Source of the DNA: Streptomyces sp. SID8352 | Lineage (GTDB): Bacteria > Actinomycetota > Actinomycetes > Streptomycetales > Streptomycetaceae | NCBI RefSeq assembly: GCF_009862265.1 | Contig: NZ_WWGX01000012.1 | Coordinates: forward strand, 62,176-126,175 | Reading direction: 5' to 3' | DNA: 64,000 bases | Shown here: positions 1-56,871 of the stretch, one piece after another | Numbering within the stretch: the stretch's first letter is position 1 | Layout: every line of letters begins with the position of its first letter | The notes under the pieces: model-generated | The model's input: the letters and a program-made list of their open reading frames with translations, nothing else | Told to the model about the DNA's origin: nothing | Databases searched by the model: none | Made by a program: the position numbers and the translations under genes

Positions 1-691
1 CCGCGGCCAGCCTCTCCACGGCGGGGCCCGCCCCGGCGGCGTGCGCGCCGCCGCCCACCACGACGAGGGGGCGCCGGGCGCGTTCCACCAGCGCTGCGGC
101 GTGCCGCAGTTGCTCCTCGGCGGGCGCCTGGAGCGGACGGGGGACCGCGGGGGCGGCGGGGCGCGGGGCGCTGTCGGCAGGCCCGGGCGCGCCGCCCGCG
201 GCGACGTCGGCGGGCACCTCGATGACGGCGATCCCGGGGCGGGGGCCGGTGGACTGCCACACGGCCGACTCGACCGCCCAGCGGAGCTGTTCACCGGTGG
301 CCAGCACGTGGTACCAGACGGCGAACTGCCCGAGCAGCTCCCGCTGCGACACCTCCTGGAACGCGGCCCTGCCCCGCTGCTCCCGGGCGGTGGCCGTGGT
401 GACGAGTACGGCGGGCAGCCGCAGCGACGCCAGTTCTGCCAGGCCGGTGAGGGCGTTGAGCACCGAAGGGCCGGTGGAGACCTCGATCGCGGCCGGCCGC
501 CGTCCGGTCCGGGTGTAACCGGCCGCCACGCAGCCCAGCATGCGCTGGTCCCGCGGCACGAGGGTGCGGAAGTCCTTGCGCCGGGAGGCCGCGTCGACCA
601 GGCAGGGGAGGTCCGAGGGGAACCCCACCACCGTGCTGACACCGAGGCGGCCGAACTCCGCCGCCATGCAGTCCCAGAACCCGTTTGCCAC
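1..691 (-). CDS. TPP-dependent enzyme, acetolactate-synthase-like (partial, runs off left edge)
   Basis: The visible 230 codons are the N-terminal PYR-type domain and the start of the central domain of a thiamine-diphosphate enzyme. Landmarks in order are VVGFPSDL, AAGYTRTG, STGPSVLNALTGL, FQEVSQREL, PRPGIAVIEVPADV and RPLVVVGGGAHAAG. These line up by eye with the equivalent blocks of IlvB encoded at 55018 in this window. The GTG start at 691 is chosen because AGGGG lies 9 nt upstream; an internal ATG eight codons later has no such site. Where IlvB has the cofactor-activating glutamate (HEQGAG), this protein reads RDQRML. The position is therefore Gln in an ungapped alignment, or Asp with a one-residue shift. 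The gene is the last visible member of a minus-strand run after the 169-aa protein and the ALDH-like protein. Substrate unknown; the family includes carboligases and decarboxylases. Confidence 0.8.
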   Translation of the reverse strand, partial: MANGFWDCMAAEFGRLGVSTVVGFPSDLPCLVDAASRRKDFRTLVPRDQRMLGCVAAGYTRTGRRPAAIEVSTGPSVLNALTGLAELASLRLPAVLVTTATAREQRGRAAFQEVSQRELLGQFAVWYHVLATGEQLRWAVESAVWQSTGPRPGIAVIEVPADVAAGGAPGPADSAPRPAAPAVPRPLQAPAEEQLRHAAALVERARRPLVVVGGGAHAAGAGPAVERLAA

Positions 692-773
692 TGACAGTCG
701 CCCCTTCGGTCTCACGCGTGCGTGCATGGGTTGTGCCGGCCCGTCCCGCGGGTCCCCACCGCGCCCCGCCGGC

Positions 774-1283
774 CTACCGCTCCGGGGAGAGGAGCACTCC
801 GGTCAGATGGAACCGGGATTCCGAGCAACGGACCCGCAGGACCGCGGCACCCTCGGACGGGTCCGCCACCAGGGCGGCACGGGCGGCCCCTTCGGCCGCC
901 TCCAGGTCCTGGGCACCGCAGTGGAAGTAGGCCTCGTGCTCGCCGGTGGCACCTTCCGAGTACGCCATCAGCAGGCGGCTGGGTTCCAGTTCGGTCGAGG
1001 CCGAGGGCCGGATGCGGTACTTCCGTCCCTCGACCCGCCGCTGGTACAGGGCTCCGGCCACGGCGCAGTATTCGGCGACGGCGAAGTGCAGGGGGGTGCG
1101 GCCGGTGAGGCCGGGCAGCCCGGCCAGCACCTCGGCGACGGCCGACGGAGCCTCGCGCCACCACGGGGGCTCGGGGACGCGGGGCGTCCGGGCGGGGGCC
1201 CGGGGGCGTCCGCCCCCGGGCGCCGGGAGGGCTCGGACGACGCTCCGCGACCGGGACGGCCGGTGCCGGCCCGCGCCGGTCAT
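774..1283 (-). CDS. Hypothetical protein, 169 aa, coupled to ALDH-like gene
   Basis: I do not recognise this protein. The first ~45 residues are Arg/Pro-rich and probably disordered. The remainder (about 48-169) looks like one soluble alpha/beta domain with the stretches TGRTPLHFAVAEYC, YRIRPSASTELEP and HEAYFHCGAQDLEAAEG. It has no membrane segment and no signal peptide. The ATG overlaps the TGA of the ALDH-like gene in an ATGA junction, so the two are very likely translationally coupled and functionally linked. The TPP enzyme gene starts 82 bp downstream on the same strand. It could be a partner or accessory subunit of one of these enzymes. The reading frame is supported by the coupling rather than by homology. 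Confidence 0.6.
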   Translation of the reverse strand: MTGAGRHRPSRSRSVVRALPAPGGGRPRAPARTPRVPEPPWWREAPSAVAEVLAGLPGLTGRTPLHFAVAEYCAVAGALYQRRVEGRKYRIRPSASTELEPSRLLMAYSEGATGEHEAYFHCGAQDLEAAEGAARAALVADPSEGAAVLRVRCSESRFHLTGVLLSPER

Positions 1284-2557
1284 CGCGCCACCAGGGGGGT
1301 GCCGACGGCGTCGGCGGCGGGGTGCGGCCCGGCCTCCCTGGACAGCAGCAGGGGACGCGCCGCCACTTCGCCCGCCTGCCAGCGGGCGCTGGCCCGTCTG
1401 CCGTAGCCGCCGAAGGGGCGGTTGCCGTCCTCGGCCTGGAAGGAGGTCCGCGGGCCGCAGTTGACGGAGGTGCCCAGGACGGGGTCGGGCAGGCCGGGCT
1501 CACCGTACACACTGACGTACATTCCGCGTTCGGTCTCCGTCTCGCTGGTGAGCCAGGCGCGGACCTCGGTGGCCTCGTGGTAGCTCGTCAGGCAGATGAC
1601 CGGGGAGAAGAGTTCGGGCGGATGTGTTTCCGAAAGGCATGGGAACTCGACGACGGTCGGTTCCAGCCGAAGGTTCCGCTCATCGACCGTTCCGCCGCTG
1701 AAGACCTTTTCCCGGTGCGTTTCGATGAACGCGGAGGCCGCTTCGAACGCGTCGTTGTAGAACATGGGGGGAATGACGAGCCCGGGCCGCTCCCTGGGCG
1801 CGCGGGGAACCTCGGCGAAGGCATGCGCCAACCGCTCCCTGAGTTCCGGGTATATCGAGGAGTGCGCGATGAGCAGGTCTGGGCAGAGGCAGTCCTGACC
1901 GCCGTTGAAGAGCCGGGACGAGGTGGTCTCGCGGACCACTTCGGCGACATCCGCGAAGGGGCCGGCCACCACGGGGTTGGGTCCGGATCCAAATCCCAGG
2001 ATGGGCACCGCGGAAGGAATCGATTCTCTGATCGCGTGAAGATTCTCGTAGCGTCCCGTGAAGACGACCGTCCGGGCTTCGCGGCACAGTGCGACGAACT
2101 CGCGCTGCGAGACGTCGGCCATGGTCACCGGATTGTGCGGAAGACCCGCGAGGATCCCGTGGAGGGCGAACACCGCCTCGCGTGTCCGGGCCGACGGCCG
2201 GATCAGCACCTCGTCGCTCCACAGTCCGGGCATCAGGCCGAAGAGGACATACGAATAGAGCACGTTGTTCGACGGCAGGAAGGTGCAGACACGGCCACCG
2301 GTGGTGCCCTCGAACTGCCGCATCTCCGCACGGCCGCCGCGCAGTGTGGCGATCGCGGAGTCCAGTTCGGCGACCGCGCTGTCCCGGGTGGCGATCTCCG
2401 TGAGTAATCGGGTGAGATCCTCGGAGCGTTCCAGCAGGAAGTCGGCCCATGTATCGCACAGGAACCCCATGTGGTCCAGATCGGGTTCCGCTTCGACTGT
2501 TCGGCTTCCGGATGACGCGACGTGCAAGAGTTCCCCCTCGGCGGTGGCGTTTCGCAC
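1280..2557 (-). CDS. Aldehyde dehydrogenase superfamily protein, possibly acylating/reductase type; contains a TTA codon
   Basis: The 425-aa protein has the ALDH fold signatures. There is a nucleotide-binding region (LPSNNVLYSYVLFG at 94-107, FTGRYENL at 166-173). The nucleophile block FNGGQDCLCPD carries Cys223, PELFSPVICL places Glu315 at the hydride-transfer position, and PFGGYGRR lies at 381-388. The general-base glutamate of hydrolytic ALDHs (ELGGK block) is replaced by ILGFGSGPNP at 186-195. Loss of that Glu, with a G-rich GxGxGxxP-like turn, resembles CoA-acylating or reductive family members, so an acyl-CoA or acyl-phosphate reductase is an alternative to an aldehyde oxidase. The length is short for the family (~480). 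Leu51 is encoded by TTA (complement 2405-2407), which implies dependence on the bldA tRNA. The GTG start at 2557 lacks a clear ribosome-binding site; Met30 is an alternative. The G+C content is visibly lower than in the flanks. Confidence 0.75.
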   Translation of the reverse strand: MRNATAEGELLHVASSGSRTVEAEPDLDHMGFLCDTWADFLLERSEDLTRLLTEIATRDSAVAELDSAIATLRGGRAEMRQFEGTTGGRVCTFLPSNNVLYSYVLFGLMPGLWSDEVLIRPSARTREAVFALHGILAGLPHNPVTMADVSQREFVALCREARTVVFTGRYENLHAIRESIPSAVPILGFGSGPNPVVAGPFADVAEVVRETTSSRLFNGGQDCLCPDLLIAHSSIYPELRERLAHAFAEVPRAPRERPGLVIPPMFYNDAFEAASAFIETHREKVFSGGTVDERNLRLEPTVVEFPCLSETHPPELFSPVICLTSYHEATEVRAWLTSETETERGMYVSVYGEPGLPDPVLGTSVNCGPRTSFQAEDGNRPFGGYGRRASARWQAGEVAARPLLLSREAGPHPAADAVGTPLVAR

Positions 2558-3418: not shown

Positions 3419-5089
3419 TCACACCGGTACCTCGGTGAGTCCGCCGTCGGCCATGTCGAGGCGGCGGGTGACGCGCACCGAGTCGAGCATGCGCCGGTCG
3501 TGGGTGACCAGCAGAAGGGTGCCCGGGTAGGTGCCCAGGGCCGACTCCAGTTGTTCGATGGCGGGCAGGTCGAGATGGTTGGTCGGCTCGTCCAGGACGA
3601 GGAGGTTGACCCCCCGGCCCTGCAGCAGTGCGAGGGCCGCCCGGGTGCGCTCACCGGGGGAGAGCGTGGACGCGGGACGCATGACGTGGTCGGCCGTGAG
3701 GCCGAACTTGGCGAGCAGGGTGCGGACATCGGCCGGACCGGTGTCGGGCGCGGCCGCGCGGAAGGAGTCGAAGAGGGCTGTCGGGCCCTGGAAGAGCGCG
3801 CGCGCCTGATCGACCTCACCGATGACGACGCCCGGGCCGAGCGCCGCCTCGCCCGCGACCAGCGGCAGCCGGCCCAGGAGGGCGGCGAGCAGCGTCGACT
3901 TGCCCGAGCCGTTGGCGCCGGTGACCGCGACCCGGTCGGCCCAGTCGATCCGCAGGGTCACCGGGCCCAGCGTGAAGGCGCCGCGCCGCACCTCGGCCTC
4001 GTTCAGCGAGGCCGCGATCGCGCCGGAGCGCGGCGCCGCGGCGATCCGCATGCGCAACTCCCACTCCTTGCGCGGTTCCTCGACGACATCGAGGCGCTCG
4101 ATGAGCCGTTCGGCCTGTCGCGCCTTGACGGCCTGCCTCTCGCTGGACTCCACGCGGGCCCTGCGGCCGATCTTGTCGTTGTCGCCGGACGCGCGGCGAG
4201 CCCTTCTGACCCCCTTCTCCGCCCAGGCGCGCTGGGTCCTGGCCCGGGCTTCGAGCGCGGACTTCCGGTCGGCGTACTCCTCGTACGCCTCCCGGGCATG
4301 CCGGCGGAGGGCCTCCCGCTCGTCCAGATGGGCGGCGTAGCCACCGCCGTAGAGGGTGACCCGCTGCTGCACCGGGTCGAGTTCGAGGACCCTGGTGACG
4401 GTGTGCGTGAGGAACGCGCGGTCGTGGCTGACGACGACGGCGCCCGCGCGCAGTCCGCGCACGAACTCCTCCAGTCTCTCCAGGCCCCCGAGGTCCAGGT
4501 CGTTGGTCGGCTCGTCGAGGAGGAACACGTCGTAGCGGGACAGCAGGAGTGAGGCGAGTCCCGCGCGGGCGGCCTGGCCGCCGGAGAGCGCGGTCATGGC
4601 CCGACCGGGACCCACGTTCAGGCCGAGTGCGCCCATGACGCGCTCGGCGCGCTCCTCCAGGTCCGCGCCTCCCAGGGCGAGCCATCGCTCCAGGGTCTCC
4701 GCGTACGCGTCGTCCGAGCCCGGCACCCCGTCCGCGAGTTCCCTCGTGGCCCGGTCCATCGCGCTCCGGGCGGCGGCGACGCCGGTACGGCGGGCCAGGA
4801 ACGCCCGGAGCGTCTCGTCCGGCCTGCGCTCGGGCTCCTGCGGCAGATGGCCGACGGTCGCGGTGGCCGGGGACAGCCGTACCGTTCCCCGGTCCGGCGC
4901 TTCCAGACCGGCGAGGAACCTGAGCAGTGTGGACTTCCCGGACCCGTTGGGCCCGACGAGTCCGATGATGTCGCCGGGCGCCACGACGAAGTCCGCCCCC
5001 GAGAACAGGGAACGGCCGCCGCGGTCGGCGGCGAGGCTCCTGGCGACGAGGGTCGCGGACGGAGAGATGGCGTGGCTGCTGATCGTCAT
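3419..5089 (-). CDS. ABC-F family ATP-binding protein, probable ribosomal-protection antibiotic resistance factor
   Basis: The soluble 556-aa protein has two ATPase cassettes and no membrane segment. The first cassette has Walker A GPNGSGKST (46-54), signature LSGGQ (168-172) and Walker B VFLLDEPTND (188-197). Residues ~250-345 form the charged linker typical of ABC-F proteins, which reaches towards the P-site tRNA. The second cassette has GANGSGKST (391-399), LSPGE (476-480) and LLVLDEPTNH (496-505). The length matches the macrolide/lincosamide ABC-F proteins of antibiotic-producing actinomycetes (about 550 aa). Start 5089 is chosen because GAGGA lies just upstream; an in-frame upstream ATG has no ribosome-binding site. 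A short ORF upstream ends on this start codon. A housekeeping translation factor of the EttA type is less likely, because the second signature and linker are those of the resistance branch. Confidence 0.85.
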   Translation of the reverse strand: MTISSHAISPSATLVARSLAADRGGRSLFSGADFVVAPGDIIGLVGPNGSGKSTLLRFLAGLEAPDRGTVRLSPATATVGHLPQEPERRPDETLRAFLARRTGVAAARSAMDRATRELADGVPGSDDAYAETLERWLALGGADLEERAERVMGALGLNVGPGRAMTALSGGQAARAGLASLLLSRYDVFLLDEPTNDLDLGGLERLEEFVRGLRAGAVVVSHDRAFLTHTVTRVLELDPVQQRVTLYGGGYAAHLDEREALRRHAREAYEEYADRKSALEARARTQRAWAEKGVRRARRASGDNDKIGRRARVESSERQAVKARQAERLIERLDVVEEPRKEWELRMRIAAAPRSGAIAASLNEAEVRRGAFTLGPVTLRIDWADRVAVTGANGSGKSTLLAALLGRLPLVAGEAALGPGVVIGEVDQARALFQGPTALFDSFRAAAPDTGPADVRTLLAKFGLTADHVMRPASTLSPGERTRAALALLQGRGVNLLVLDEPTNHLDLPAIEQLESALGTYPGTLLLVTHDRRMLDSVRVTRRLDMADGGLTEVPV

Positions 5090-5145
5090 GAGGTCCTCGC
5101 GAGGGCGAACGCTGTCGGAGATGCGGCGGCGCGGGTGAGCATCAC
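5086..5145 (-). CDS. Candidate leader ORF of the ABC-F gene (18-19 aa)
   Basis: GTG at 5145 or ATG at 5142 opens a short frame encoding MLTRAAASPTAFALARTS from the ATG. Its TGA overlaps the ABC-F ATG (TCATGA). The overlap would couple the two cistrons. Short upstream ORFs that sense ribosome-targeting drugs are known for several ABC-F genes. The weak point is the absence of a clear ribosome-binding site before this ORF. Confidence 0.4.
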   Translation of the reverse strand: MMLTRAAASPTAFALARTS

Positions 5146-5542
5146 GCGATGACCGGACCGACGGGGAGGCGGGCGTGCCGTCCGGCCCGGAGGGTCCGGG
5201 GGAGGGCATGGCGTACCGAGGTCGCGTCCTTTGGGGTCACGGGCAGCGCACGGGTCGGCGTCGCACGTGAGGGACGTGCGGAACGACCGGGCGGCGTGAT
5301 GATCGGAACCTCGGAGCTACAAGGTCCACCTCTGACGGAGACGACAGGACCGCCGACCACCCTAGGCGCTCGGGGCGAAGCGGGGCAAGGACCCGGCCGG
5401 GGAGGAGGGGCCCGGTGCGGCGGCCCGTTCCCCACCCGGTGGAAAGGGAGTTCCCCCCGGGGGGCGGCCAGGGACGCCGGGCCCTGACACTCCTTGGGCG
5501 GGGGCCCGGGGGTTCCGCCGGGGCGGGGGGCGCGGGGCGCGT

Positions 5543-55017: not shown

Positions 55018-56871
55018 ATGACGATGACCGAGCAGGCAACCGGGGCCCAGCACCCGCAGCCGAGGCCCCGTTCCGGAGGACAGCAGTCCGCCACCGAGCA
55101 CGTCACGGGTGCGCAGGCCCTCATCCGCTCCCTGGAGGAGGTCGGCGCCGACACGGTATTCGGCATTCCCGGCGGCACGATCCTTCCGGCCTACGACCCG
55201 CTGATGGACTCCACCCGGGTGCGCCACGTCCTCGTCCGCCACGAGCAGGGCGCCGGTCACGCGGCCACCGGCTACGCCCAGGCCACCGGCAAGGTCGGCG
55301 TCTGCATGGCGACCTCCGGCCCCGGCGCCACCAACCTGGTCACCCCGATCGCCGACGCCAACATGGACTCCGTGCCGCTGGTCGCGATCACCGGCCAGGT
55401 GGTCTCCTCCTCGATCGGCACGGACGCCTTCCAGGAGGCGGACATCGTCGGCATCAGCATGCCGATCACCAAGCACAGCTTCCTGGTGACCAGGGCCGAG
55501 GACATCCCCCGGGTGATCGCCCAGGCGTTCCACATTGCCTCCACCGGCCGCCCCGGCCCGGTCCTGGTGGACATCCCCAAGGACATCCTCCAGAAGAAGA
55601 CCACCTTCTCCTGGCCGCCGGTCATGGACCTGCCCGGATACCGCCCGGTGACCAAGCCGCACGCCAAGCAGATCCGCGAGGCCGCCAAGCTGATCACCGC
55701 CGCCAAGCGGCCCGTCCTCTACGTCGGCGGCGGCGTGCTCAAGGCGGGCGCCACCGCCGAGCTGAAGGTCCTCGCCGAGCTGACCGGAGCGCCCGTCACC
55801 ACCACCCTGATGGCGCTCGGCGCGTTCCCCGACAGCCACCCGCTGCACGTGGGAATGCCGGGCATGCACGGTGCGGTCACCGCCGTCACCGCGCTGCAGA
55901 AGGCCGACCTGATCGTCGCCCTCGGCGCCCGCTTCGACGACCGCGTCACCGGCAAGCTGGACAGCTTCGCCCCGCACGCCCGGATCGTCCACGCCGACAT
56001 CGACCCGGCCGAGATCGGCAAGAACCGCGCCGCCGACGTGCCCATCGTCGGTGACGCCCGCGAGGTCATCGCCGATCTGGTCCAGGCCGTGCAGAAGGAG
56101 CACAGCGAGGGCAACCGCGGCGACTACACCGCCTGGTGGAAGGACCTCGACCGCTGGCGCGAGACCTACCCCCTGGGCTACGAGCAGCCCGCCGACGGCT
56201 CGCTCTCCCCGCAGGCCGTCATCGAGCGCATCGGGCAGCTCGCGCCCGAGGGCACCGTCTTCGCGGCCGGTGTCGGCCAGCACCAGATGTGGGCCGCCCA
56301 CTTCGTGCAGTACGAGCAGCCCGCCACCTGGCTCAACTCCGGCGGCGCCGGAACCATGGGCTACGCCGTCCCCGCCGCCATGGGCGCCAAGGCCGGCCGC
56401 CCCGAGCGCACCGTCTGGGCCATCGACGGCGACGGCTGCTTCCAGATGACCAACCAGGAACTCACCACCTGCGCCCTGAACAACATCCCGATCAAGGTCG
56501 CCGTCATCAACAACGGCGCCCTCGGGATGGTCCGCCAGTGGCAGACCCTGTTCTACAACCAGCGGTACTCCAACACCGTGCTGCACTCCGGCCCCGACGA
56601 CGTCAACCCCGAGGCCCGCGGGACCCGCGTCCCCGACTTCGTGAAGCTGTCGGAGGCCATGGGCTGCCACGCCATCCGCTGCGAGGACCCGGCCGACCTC
56701 GACAAGGTCATCGAAGAGGCGAACTCCATCAACGACCGTCCGGTCGTCGTCGACTTCATCGTCCACGAGGACGCCATGGTGTGGCCGATGGTCGCCGCCG
56801 GCACCTCCAACGACGAGATCATGGCCGCCCGGGACGTCCGCCCCGACTTCGGCGACAACGAAGACGACTGA
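55018..56871 (+). CDS. ilvB: Acetolactate synthase, large (catalytic) subunit
   Basis: The 617-aa TPP- and FAD-dependent enzyme makes 2-acetolactate or 2-aceto-2-hydroxybutyrate, the first common step to Val, Leu and Ile. The activating Glu is in [59 protein letters not shown] and the TPP motif [16 protein letters not shown] are all intact. ATG at 55018 is taken, although ATG at 55024 is equally possible; only GAGAAGAGA precedes them. ilvN follows 34 bp later. Expression should be set by the leader-peptide attenuator. Confidence 0.97.

Follow-up and report, generated by a model that had tools for sequence, protein, structure and literature searches.

The DNA analysed here is a 64,000-nucleotide window of Streptomyces sp. 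SID8352 (assembly GCF_009862265.1, contig NZ_WWGX01000012.1; G000:C20:62176-126175), whose left end holds the first three genes of a minus-strand run. The run is opened by an aldehyde dehydrogenase (ALDH)-superfamily enzyme (1280..2557, 425 aa, GTG start), followed by a 169-aa protein, p169 (774..1283), and by a thiamine diphosphate (ThDP) enzyme of 574 aa (G000:C20:61178-62902), which the window edge cuts so that its N-terminal part lies at 1..727. The ALDH stop and the p169 start overlap in an ATGA (1280..1283), 46 bases separate the p169 stop from the ThDP gene start, and a TTA leucine codon occupies ALDH codon 51 (2405..2407); the three frames, the coupling and the single TTA were all found where a first-pass annotation, made from the letters alone, had placed them. 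Pfam finds Aldedh in the ALDH (PF00171, 66.3 bits), an assignment shared by the family alignment and by a homologue of the fusE type in Paenibacillus brasilensis (L112). It finds no family in p169 and three TPP-enzyme domains in the ThDP enzyme (PF02776, PF00205 and PF02775; the PYR, TH3 and PP domains), all above cut-off.

The annotation had read these genes as a three-gene cassette, which proved to be an artefact of the window edge. When the flank was read leftwards, the minus-strand run went on to about -15 kb, and a stand-alone cassette was rejected. The 14 genes of the run probably form one operon, read as a single transcript. Two of the further genes belong with the ALDH and the ThDP enzyme in what follows: an AMP-forming ligase (AMP ligase; L008:17645-19006, minus strand, 453 aa) and a ketosynthase (KS; L008:16558-17655, minus strand, 365 aa), in which the active-site Cys and His/Lys motifs were seen by eye.

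By alignment, the canonical catalytic Glu is lost in both the ThDP enzyme and the ALDH. Aligned with succinic semialdehyde dehydrogenase, the ALDH has Cys223 (codon TGC, 1889..1891, minus strand) at the catalytic cysteine position, within NGGQDCLCPD, and Gly190 (GGA, 1988..1990, minus strand) at the position that the general-base Glu holds in ordinary ALDHs (LELGG). The Glu of this ELGG motif is Gly in 14/14 chosen family sequences and in 80/80 loci of our main comparison set, the best 80 of 114 confirmed ALDH-family relatives in GTDB genomes. Cys223 is likewise kept in 80/80, a count biased by the search because one of its two seed stretches covered the Cys223 region; the counts for Gly190 and for the ThDP-enzyme residue described below are free of this bias. 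Family members keep the Cys, Asn and Glu-x-Phe motifs, and the Cys is lost in one locus of the genus set (L058). Loss of the general-base Glu goes with thioester-type (acylating) ALDHs. Because this Glu is Gly throughout the 80 loci, the ALDH is probably of the thioester type rather than hydrolytic.

In the ThDP superfamily, standard position 51 is Glu in 94% of enzymes and Val in 3%, Val being typical of glyoxylate carboligases, and the surrounding motif is [DHN]-E-x6-A (PMC3534367, available part). The present family reads D-Q-x6-A at this motif, the Gln being Gln61 in the window (CAG, 545..547, minus strand). Mapping of the published motif, a phmmer alignment to acetohydroxyacid synthase (AHAS) and profile alignments to BbmA and AHAS agree on the column. 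Gln was found in 79/79 covered ThDP enzymes of the 80 loci, the eightieth (L121) having a broken frame and being left out; a genus set of 24 gave Gln in 22, His in one (L038, RAHR) and a broken frame in one (L047). The GDGX(24-27)N motif that binds ThDP/Mg, here GDGA..N, is invariant or nearly so across 15 chosen sequences, a selection made without the odd loci L038 and L058, both of which the ALDH alignment includes.

What kind of ThDP enzyme is this? By profile the nearest relatives are BbmA and AHAS, and 2-hydroxyacyl-CoA lyase/synthase (HACL/S) reaches 275 bits; by model structure BbmA (Z 37.4) and AHAS (Z 36.7) are tied and HACL/S follows at Z 35.7. The model cannot separate BbmA, AHAS, HACL and glyoxylate carboligase (Z 37.4 to about 35). 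BbmA/CsmA (PDB 8x3x, 8x3z) and AHAS, the best profile and structure matches, have the three-domain fold in common with our enzyme, and BbmA/CsmA are only 21-24% identical to it; their function is taken from the PDB titles ("ThDP-dependent HKA synthase"), as no paper with these names was found. BbmA and AHAS carry Glu at the key column, whereas the present enzyme has Gln (CsmA was not seen aligned). Glyoxylate carboligase is likewise a natural class without the catalytic Glu, with Val there in place of Gln (PMC3534367, available part). The HACL/S matches raise an alpha-oxidation-like scheme, in which the ThDP enzyme would act as a 2-hydroxyacyl-CoA lyase, releasing formyl-CoA and an aldehyde shorter by one carbon that the ALDH would oxidise and the ligase re-activate. 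Lyase, ALDH and ligase are indeed the trio of alpha-oxidation, the pathway in which HACL works, but the HACL/S structures retain the canonical Glu (E50) that the present family lacks, and no 2-hydroxylase common to the loci was noticed, in the course of work that included no systematic search for one; we consider this scheme improbable. A second ThDP-enzyme gene lies in the window at about 55129-56535 (plus strand), within an 818-aa open frame, and is 25% identical to that of the cluster.

The ALDH and the ThDP enzyme recur together. All 80 loci contain the ThDP enzyme, and in 75 it lies immediately downstream of the ALDH in the same orientation, which bears out the earlier suggestion of an accessory, specialised-metabolism role in which the two enzymes act together. 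The ALDH and ThDP distance matrices correlate with r 0.955 over 79 loci (L121 again left out; 0/999 permutations as high), a figure to which shared host ancestry contributes. Counted over whole loci, AMP-binding matches occur in 67, KS matches in 67 and all four in 57, tallies to which A-domains and KSs of no relation to the module may contribute; restricted to 6 kb around the ALDH and to its strand, the numbers are 55 for the ligase, 47 for the KS and 44 for both. The 80 loci come from 77 genomes, with two loci each in S. rimosus WC-3904, Streptomyces SDr-06 and Paenibacillus A3, and their hosts are Actinomycetota, Paenibacillus, Brevibacillus, Fictibacillus, Hazenella, Paludifilum and one Bradyrhizobium. 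Within the genus, a survey of 295 genomes (E below 1e-40) placed the specific ALDH family at 29 sites in 28 genomes, the present one included; 27 of the other 28 sites were compared, and 23 of these have a ThDP homologue near the ALDH (missing in L031, L036, L055 and L058). L036, L038 and L058 belong to a cluster type that is related to this one and shows signs of decay, namely the RAHR version of the ThDP enzyme in L038 and the lost ALDH Cys in L058; no ThDP gene was found in the L036 and L058 stretches.

The first-pass annotation had found no named cluster to match the pair. It does match a known module, fusC-F of fusaricidin biosynthesis in Paenibacillus polymyxa. The fus genes comprise fusG (enoyl reductase), fusF (acyl-CoA ligase, 1461 bp), fusE (aldehyde dehydrogenase, 1224), fusD (acetolactate synthase large subunit, 1701), fusC (KS, 1242), fusB (dehydratase-type) and fusA, a nonribosomal peptide synthetase (NRPS), and when any one of fusB-G was deleted, both the antifungal activity and the fusaricidin peaks were lost (PMC6829208, available part). 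The segment fusF-E-D-C presents the same four enzymes as the present run, in the order ligase-ALDH-ThDP-KS, and, judged from the sequences, our quartet is identical in kind to it. The P. brasilensis locus provides the bridge: its frames of 486, 407 and 566 aa have the exact lengths of fusF, fusE and fusD, its neighbours are enoyl-reductase-, KS-, FabA-like and NRPS genes, and its ThDP enzyme also has Gln at the key position (KDQR). The two systems differ in their surroundings, the fus operon having FabI- and FabZ-type genes and an NRPS where the present run has FkbH, R2lox-like, GT2, MFS and p169 genes and no NRPS.

Two lost catalytic glutamates, together with degenerate members such as the RAHR enzyme and the Cys-less ALDH, could also indicate that turnover has gone from the ThDP/ALDH pair, leaving a relic that is dead or regulatory. 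The substitute residues are fixed, however, and conservation extends to GDG..N in the ThDP enzyme and to the Cys, Asn and Glu-x-Phe motifs of the ALDH; moreover, deleting fusD or fusE abolished fusaricidin activity (PMC6829208, available part). We regard a relic as very improbable indeed. By contrast, we are fairly confident that the AMP ligase, thioester-type ALDH, Gln-type ThDP enzyme and KS constitute a starter-acyl module.

The remaining genes of the run, all on the minus strand, suggest what surrounds this module. Beyond the KS lie genes for an MFS protein (L008:15222-16565), an FkbH protein (L008:13081-15399; TIGR01686, 185 bits against a cut-off of 147), an R2lox-like protein (about L008:12083-13084) with two ExxH motifs seen by eye, a GT2 protein (L008:11215-12093) and a condensation-like protein (L008:9729-11069; 25 bits, under cut-off). 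Further left come a protein without family (L008:8519-9724 or longer), a 217-aa protein, also without family, between it and a sulfotransferase-like gene (L008:5902-6771), and a sugar epimerase/dehydratase-like protein (L008:4840-5841). FkbH marks a branch of 11 among the 80 loci, in which the ThDP enzyme, MFS and R2lox-like genes (the last located by tblastn) are present in 11/11, GT2 in 10, the AMP ligase in 10 and the KS in 9; one of the 11, L072, stops at a contig edge. This branch includes loci of S. goshikiensis, S. bungoensis, Micromonospora rosaria, Sphaerisporangium album and Microbacterium MYb54. Compared with the other members, the present locus adds the sulfotransferase-like protein and the two proteins without family, whereas the others add ATP-grasp, CysK/CysE-like, GNAT or carbamoyltransferase genes; condensation-like proteins occur in the present locus and in L064. 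R2lox-like genes are also found in nine loci without FkbH. A tetronate-type use of FkbH was considered and rejected, since the genes scanned include no FabH-like condensing gene.

The 169-aa protein, which the first-pass annotation had left unrecognised, is probably recognisable, from its model, as a small protein of the thiolase/ketosynthase fold. The model itself is modest (pLDDT 69.8, pTM 0.58). Its top Foldseek matches are 7f28_C and 6qsp_B at E 0.02-0.03, values not significant alone, with unrelated folds further down; VIA-align gives 7f28_C at Z 9.1 (127 residues, root-mean-square deviation 3.1), little above the tool's "common" level, and 6qsp_B at Z 7.7. By title, 48 of 50 VIA-align rows belong to the thiolase superfamily, those of 3leh and 7vyu being uninformative. 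The sequence profile reaches its first KS only at E 0.49. The matching chains of 6qsp (ApeO-ApeC) and 7f28 are short (238 and 198 residues; ranks 4 and 1 in VIA-align, 2 and 1 in Foldseek) and are taken, from title and length, as partners of the chain-length-factor type; their sequence identity to p169 is 6-8%, and the fold match comes from a modest model. Together with the family alignment, the predicted structure suggests that p169 is probably a short ketosynthase-like (chain-length-factor-like) subunit and the predicted partner of the KS. Homologues follow the ALDH in 10/11 FkbH-type loci, counting a weak one in L077 and a broken one in L121 (the exception is L073), and one more occurs in L062; with p169 of the window as sole query, 5/11 FkbH-type loci match. 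The refutation that the first-pass annotation had named, absence of co-occurrence in other genomes, did not materialise for the ALDH/ThDP pair; p169 recurs in a sub-group only.

What would such a module do? Our best explanation, which we favour with modest confidence, is that the run is the opening of an uncharacterised natural-product cluster with the starter-acyl module at its heart. The ThDP enzyme would convert an alpha-keto acid into an aldehyde one carbon shorter, which the ALDH would oxidise on its cysteine before transferring the acyl product to a thiol, on CoA or on a carrier protein; the AMP ligase would activate any free acid and the KS, with p169, would begin chain extension. Elaboration of the product would then fall to FkbH, through glyceryl loading, to the R2lox-like oxidase and to GT2, and its export to the MFS protein. 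In nature a ThDP decarboxylase is usually paired with an ALDH in this way, and the keto-acid route agrees with the plain omega-guanidino chain found in fusaricidin. With 15 carbons (C15), this chain calls for an odd starter, so that a keto acid of C6 or C4, rather than ketoarginine, would suit. We nevertheless hold the direction, keto-acid decarboxylation and oxidation, only tentatively, at slightly less than an even chance.

The quartet could run the other way. In this alternative the ligase would activate a carboxylic acid, the ALDH would reduce it to an aldehyde in the manner of LuxE/LuxC, and the ThDP enzyme would join the aldehyde to a donor such as pyruvate, yielding an alpha-hydroxyketone or an alpha-hydroxy-beta-keto acid for the KS. 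Such a reductive, acyloin-forming route accords with the Gly at the ALDH general base, with the AMP-ALDH fusions (roughly 885-1041 aa) found in 8/27 genus loci and with the nearness of BbmA, the "HKA synthase", and AHAS by structure and profile. The other Glu-less class, glyoxylate carboligase, is a carboligase (PMC3534367, available part), and carbazole biosynthesis offers a precedent in which the product that a ThDP enzyme forms from two keto acids goes on to a KS-like enzyme (PMC7466098, available part). The fusaricidin side chain argues against it: the available part of PMC6829208 names this chain 15-guanidino-3-hydroxypentadecanoic acid, a structure lacking oxygen near its omega end, so that acyloin formation alone leaves a plain chain, built with the same quartet, unexplained. 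No such operon was met in the literature either, in searches not closely aimed at one. On balance we think this route rather unlikely, though the likeliest of the alternatives.

Several observations weigh against the oxidative starter-acyl explanation. (i) Alongside an oxidative thioester-type ALDH the ligase would be in part superfluous, a point in favour of the reductive direction. (ii) The HH motif at positions 114/115 typifies pyruvate/indolepyruvate (keto-acid) decarboxylases (PMC3534367, available part), and in its place 79/79 covered ThDP enzymes have an AHAS-type Phe-Gln (Phe123-Gln124), a further point for the acyloin route. (iii) No FabI- or FabZ-like gene was recognised among the genes to about -15 kb, some of whose proteins are without family and for which host copies are possible, and no PF00550 carrier protein was found anywhere on the contig (C20); a tblastn search with two acyl carrier proteins (ACPs; E 0.05) against 13 loci and the present one found an ACP only in L073 and L077. 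(iv) The fus-type proteins of P. brasilensis are just 28-31% identical to those of the present locus, homology being measured on these proteins and not on those of P. polymyxa itself. (v) The closest ALDH, 70% identical and from the same genus (G066; L031:17195-18442), showed no such ThDP partner in this search, the best match in its genome being 26%. This orphan ALDH keeps the catalytic Cys; beside it lie an MFS gene and an open frame resembling a regulator of the LuxR type.

A clue to the product comes from the other side of the ALDH, where an extra copy of an ABC-F ATPase (3419..5209, minus strand) may be the self-resistance gene of the cluster and may shield the ribosome from its product. 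The genome has a second copy on contig C72, to which that of the window is 75% identical, and the family is ribosomal-protection-like (NF000355, 385 bits against a cut-off of 380). Copies at 68-76% identity occur in 20/25 relatives, the other five having none at that level; each of the 20 is separated from sdaA, either by lying on a different contig or by more than 1 Mb, whereas here sdaA is the neighbour. Since the relatives' copies lie away from sdaA and the genome keeps its second copy on C72, the ABC-F was rejected as a core gene of this spot. ABC-F genes, 47-51% identical to that of the window, are also found in the loci L067, L072 and L077. Because the duplicated ABC-F is ribosomal-protection-like and has counterparts in these three loci, a ribosome-targeting product is plausible.

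A bolder proposal combines two claims: that the pair represents an undescribed ThDP class with a fixed Gln, co-evolved with a Glu-less, thioester-type ALDH as a two-enzyme machine for unusual antibiotic starters (odd-length or omega-amino/guanidino) across Actinomycetota, Bacillota and one Bradyrhizobium locus, and that the FkbH/R2lox branch leads to a new family of glycosylated, ribosome-targeting antibiotics. That both hold seems to us doubtful. Should the interpretation of the cluster be right, it would point to the enzymes with which fusaricidin's omega-guanidino fatty acid begins, and likewise the acyl portions of many clusters not yet assigned; it would provide a natural ThDP family for testing whether the textbook Glu is needed in cofactor activation, and it would draw attention to a family of uncharacterised antibiotic clusters that carries its own hint of resistance in the duplicated ABC-F. 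Neither the cluster nor the Gln-type ThDP family, nor a named product, was found in a literature search whose coverage of subscription journals was limited and which leaves their absence unproven. Links to lipolanthine, lipoxamycin and neoenactin were considered and not established.

The composition of the opening genes was also re-examined. The low G+C noted earlier is exact as a local value (38/60 in 2041-2100): when the window is cut into consecutive 60-base stretches, 9% of them reach this value or fall below it, and only the ALDH gene is low (67.4%, with 0.83 at third codon positions), p169 standing at 76.7%, the ThDP gene at 75.6% and the window mean at 74.0%. With low G+C confined to the ALDH, recent acquisition argued from composition is weak. 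Apart from the one TTA in the ALDH, the other cluster genes and the ABC-F gene that were checked have none, barring the R2lox-like gene, which carries one only if an upstream start is taken; the codon in this first gene of the run suggests possible bldA control of the ALDH.

Other loci show variants of the module. L048:8062-15862 and its relatives combine an AMP-ALDH fusion, a ThDP enzyme, a condensation/WS-DGAT-like protein and a protein like the BioF-type alpha-oxoamine synthases, and may make aminoketones. L042, L087 (S. virginiae) and similar loci have the ThDP/ALDH pair with a KS and an R2lox-like protein and no AMP ligase match in the locus; L042 also has an ACP and a VinK-like acyltransferase. 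In L121 (S. diastatochromogenes ATCC 21481), the ThDP, AMP ligase and KS frames are in pieces, probably through assembly errors.

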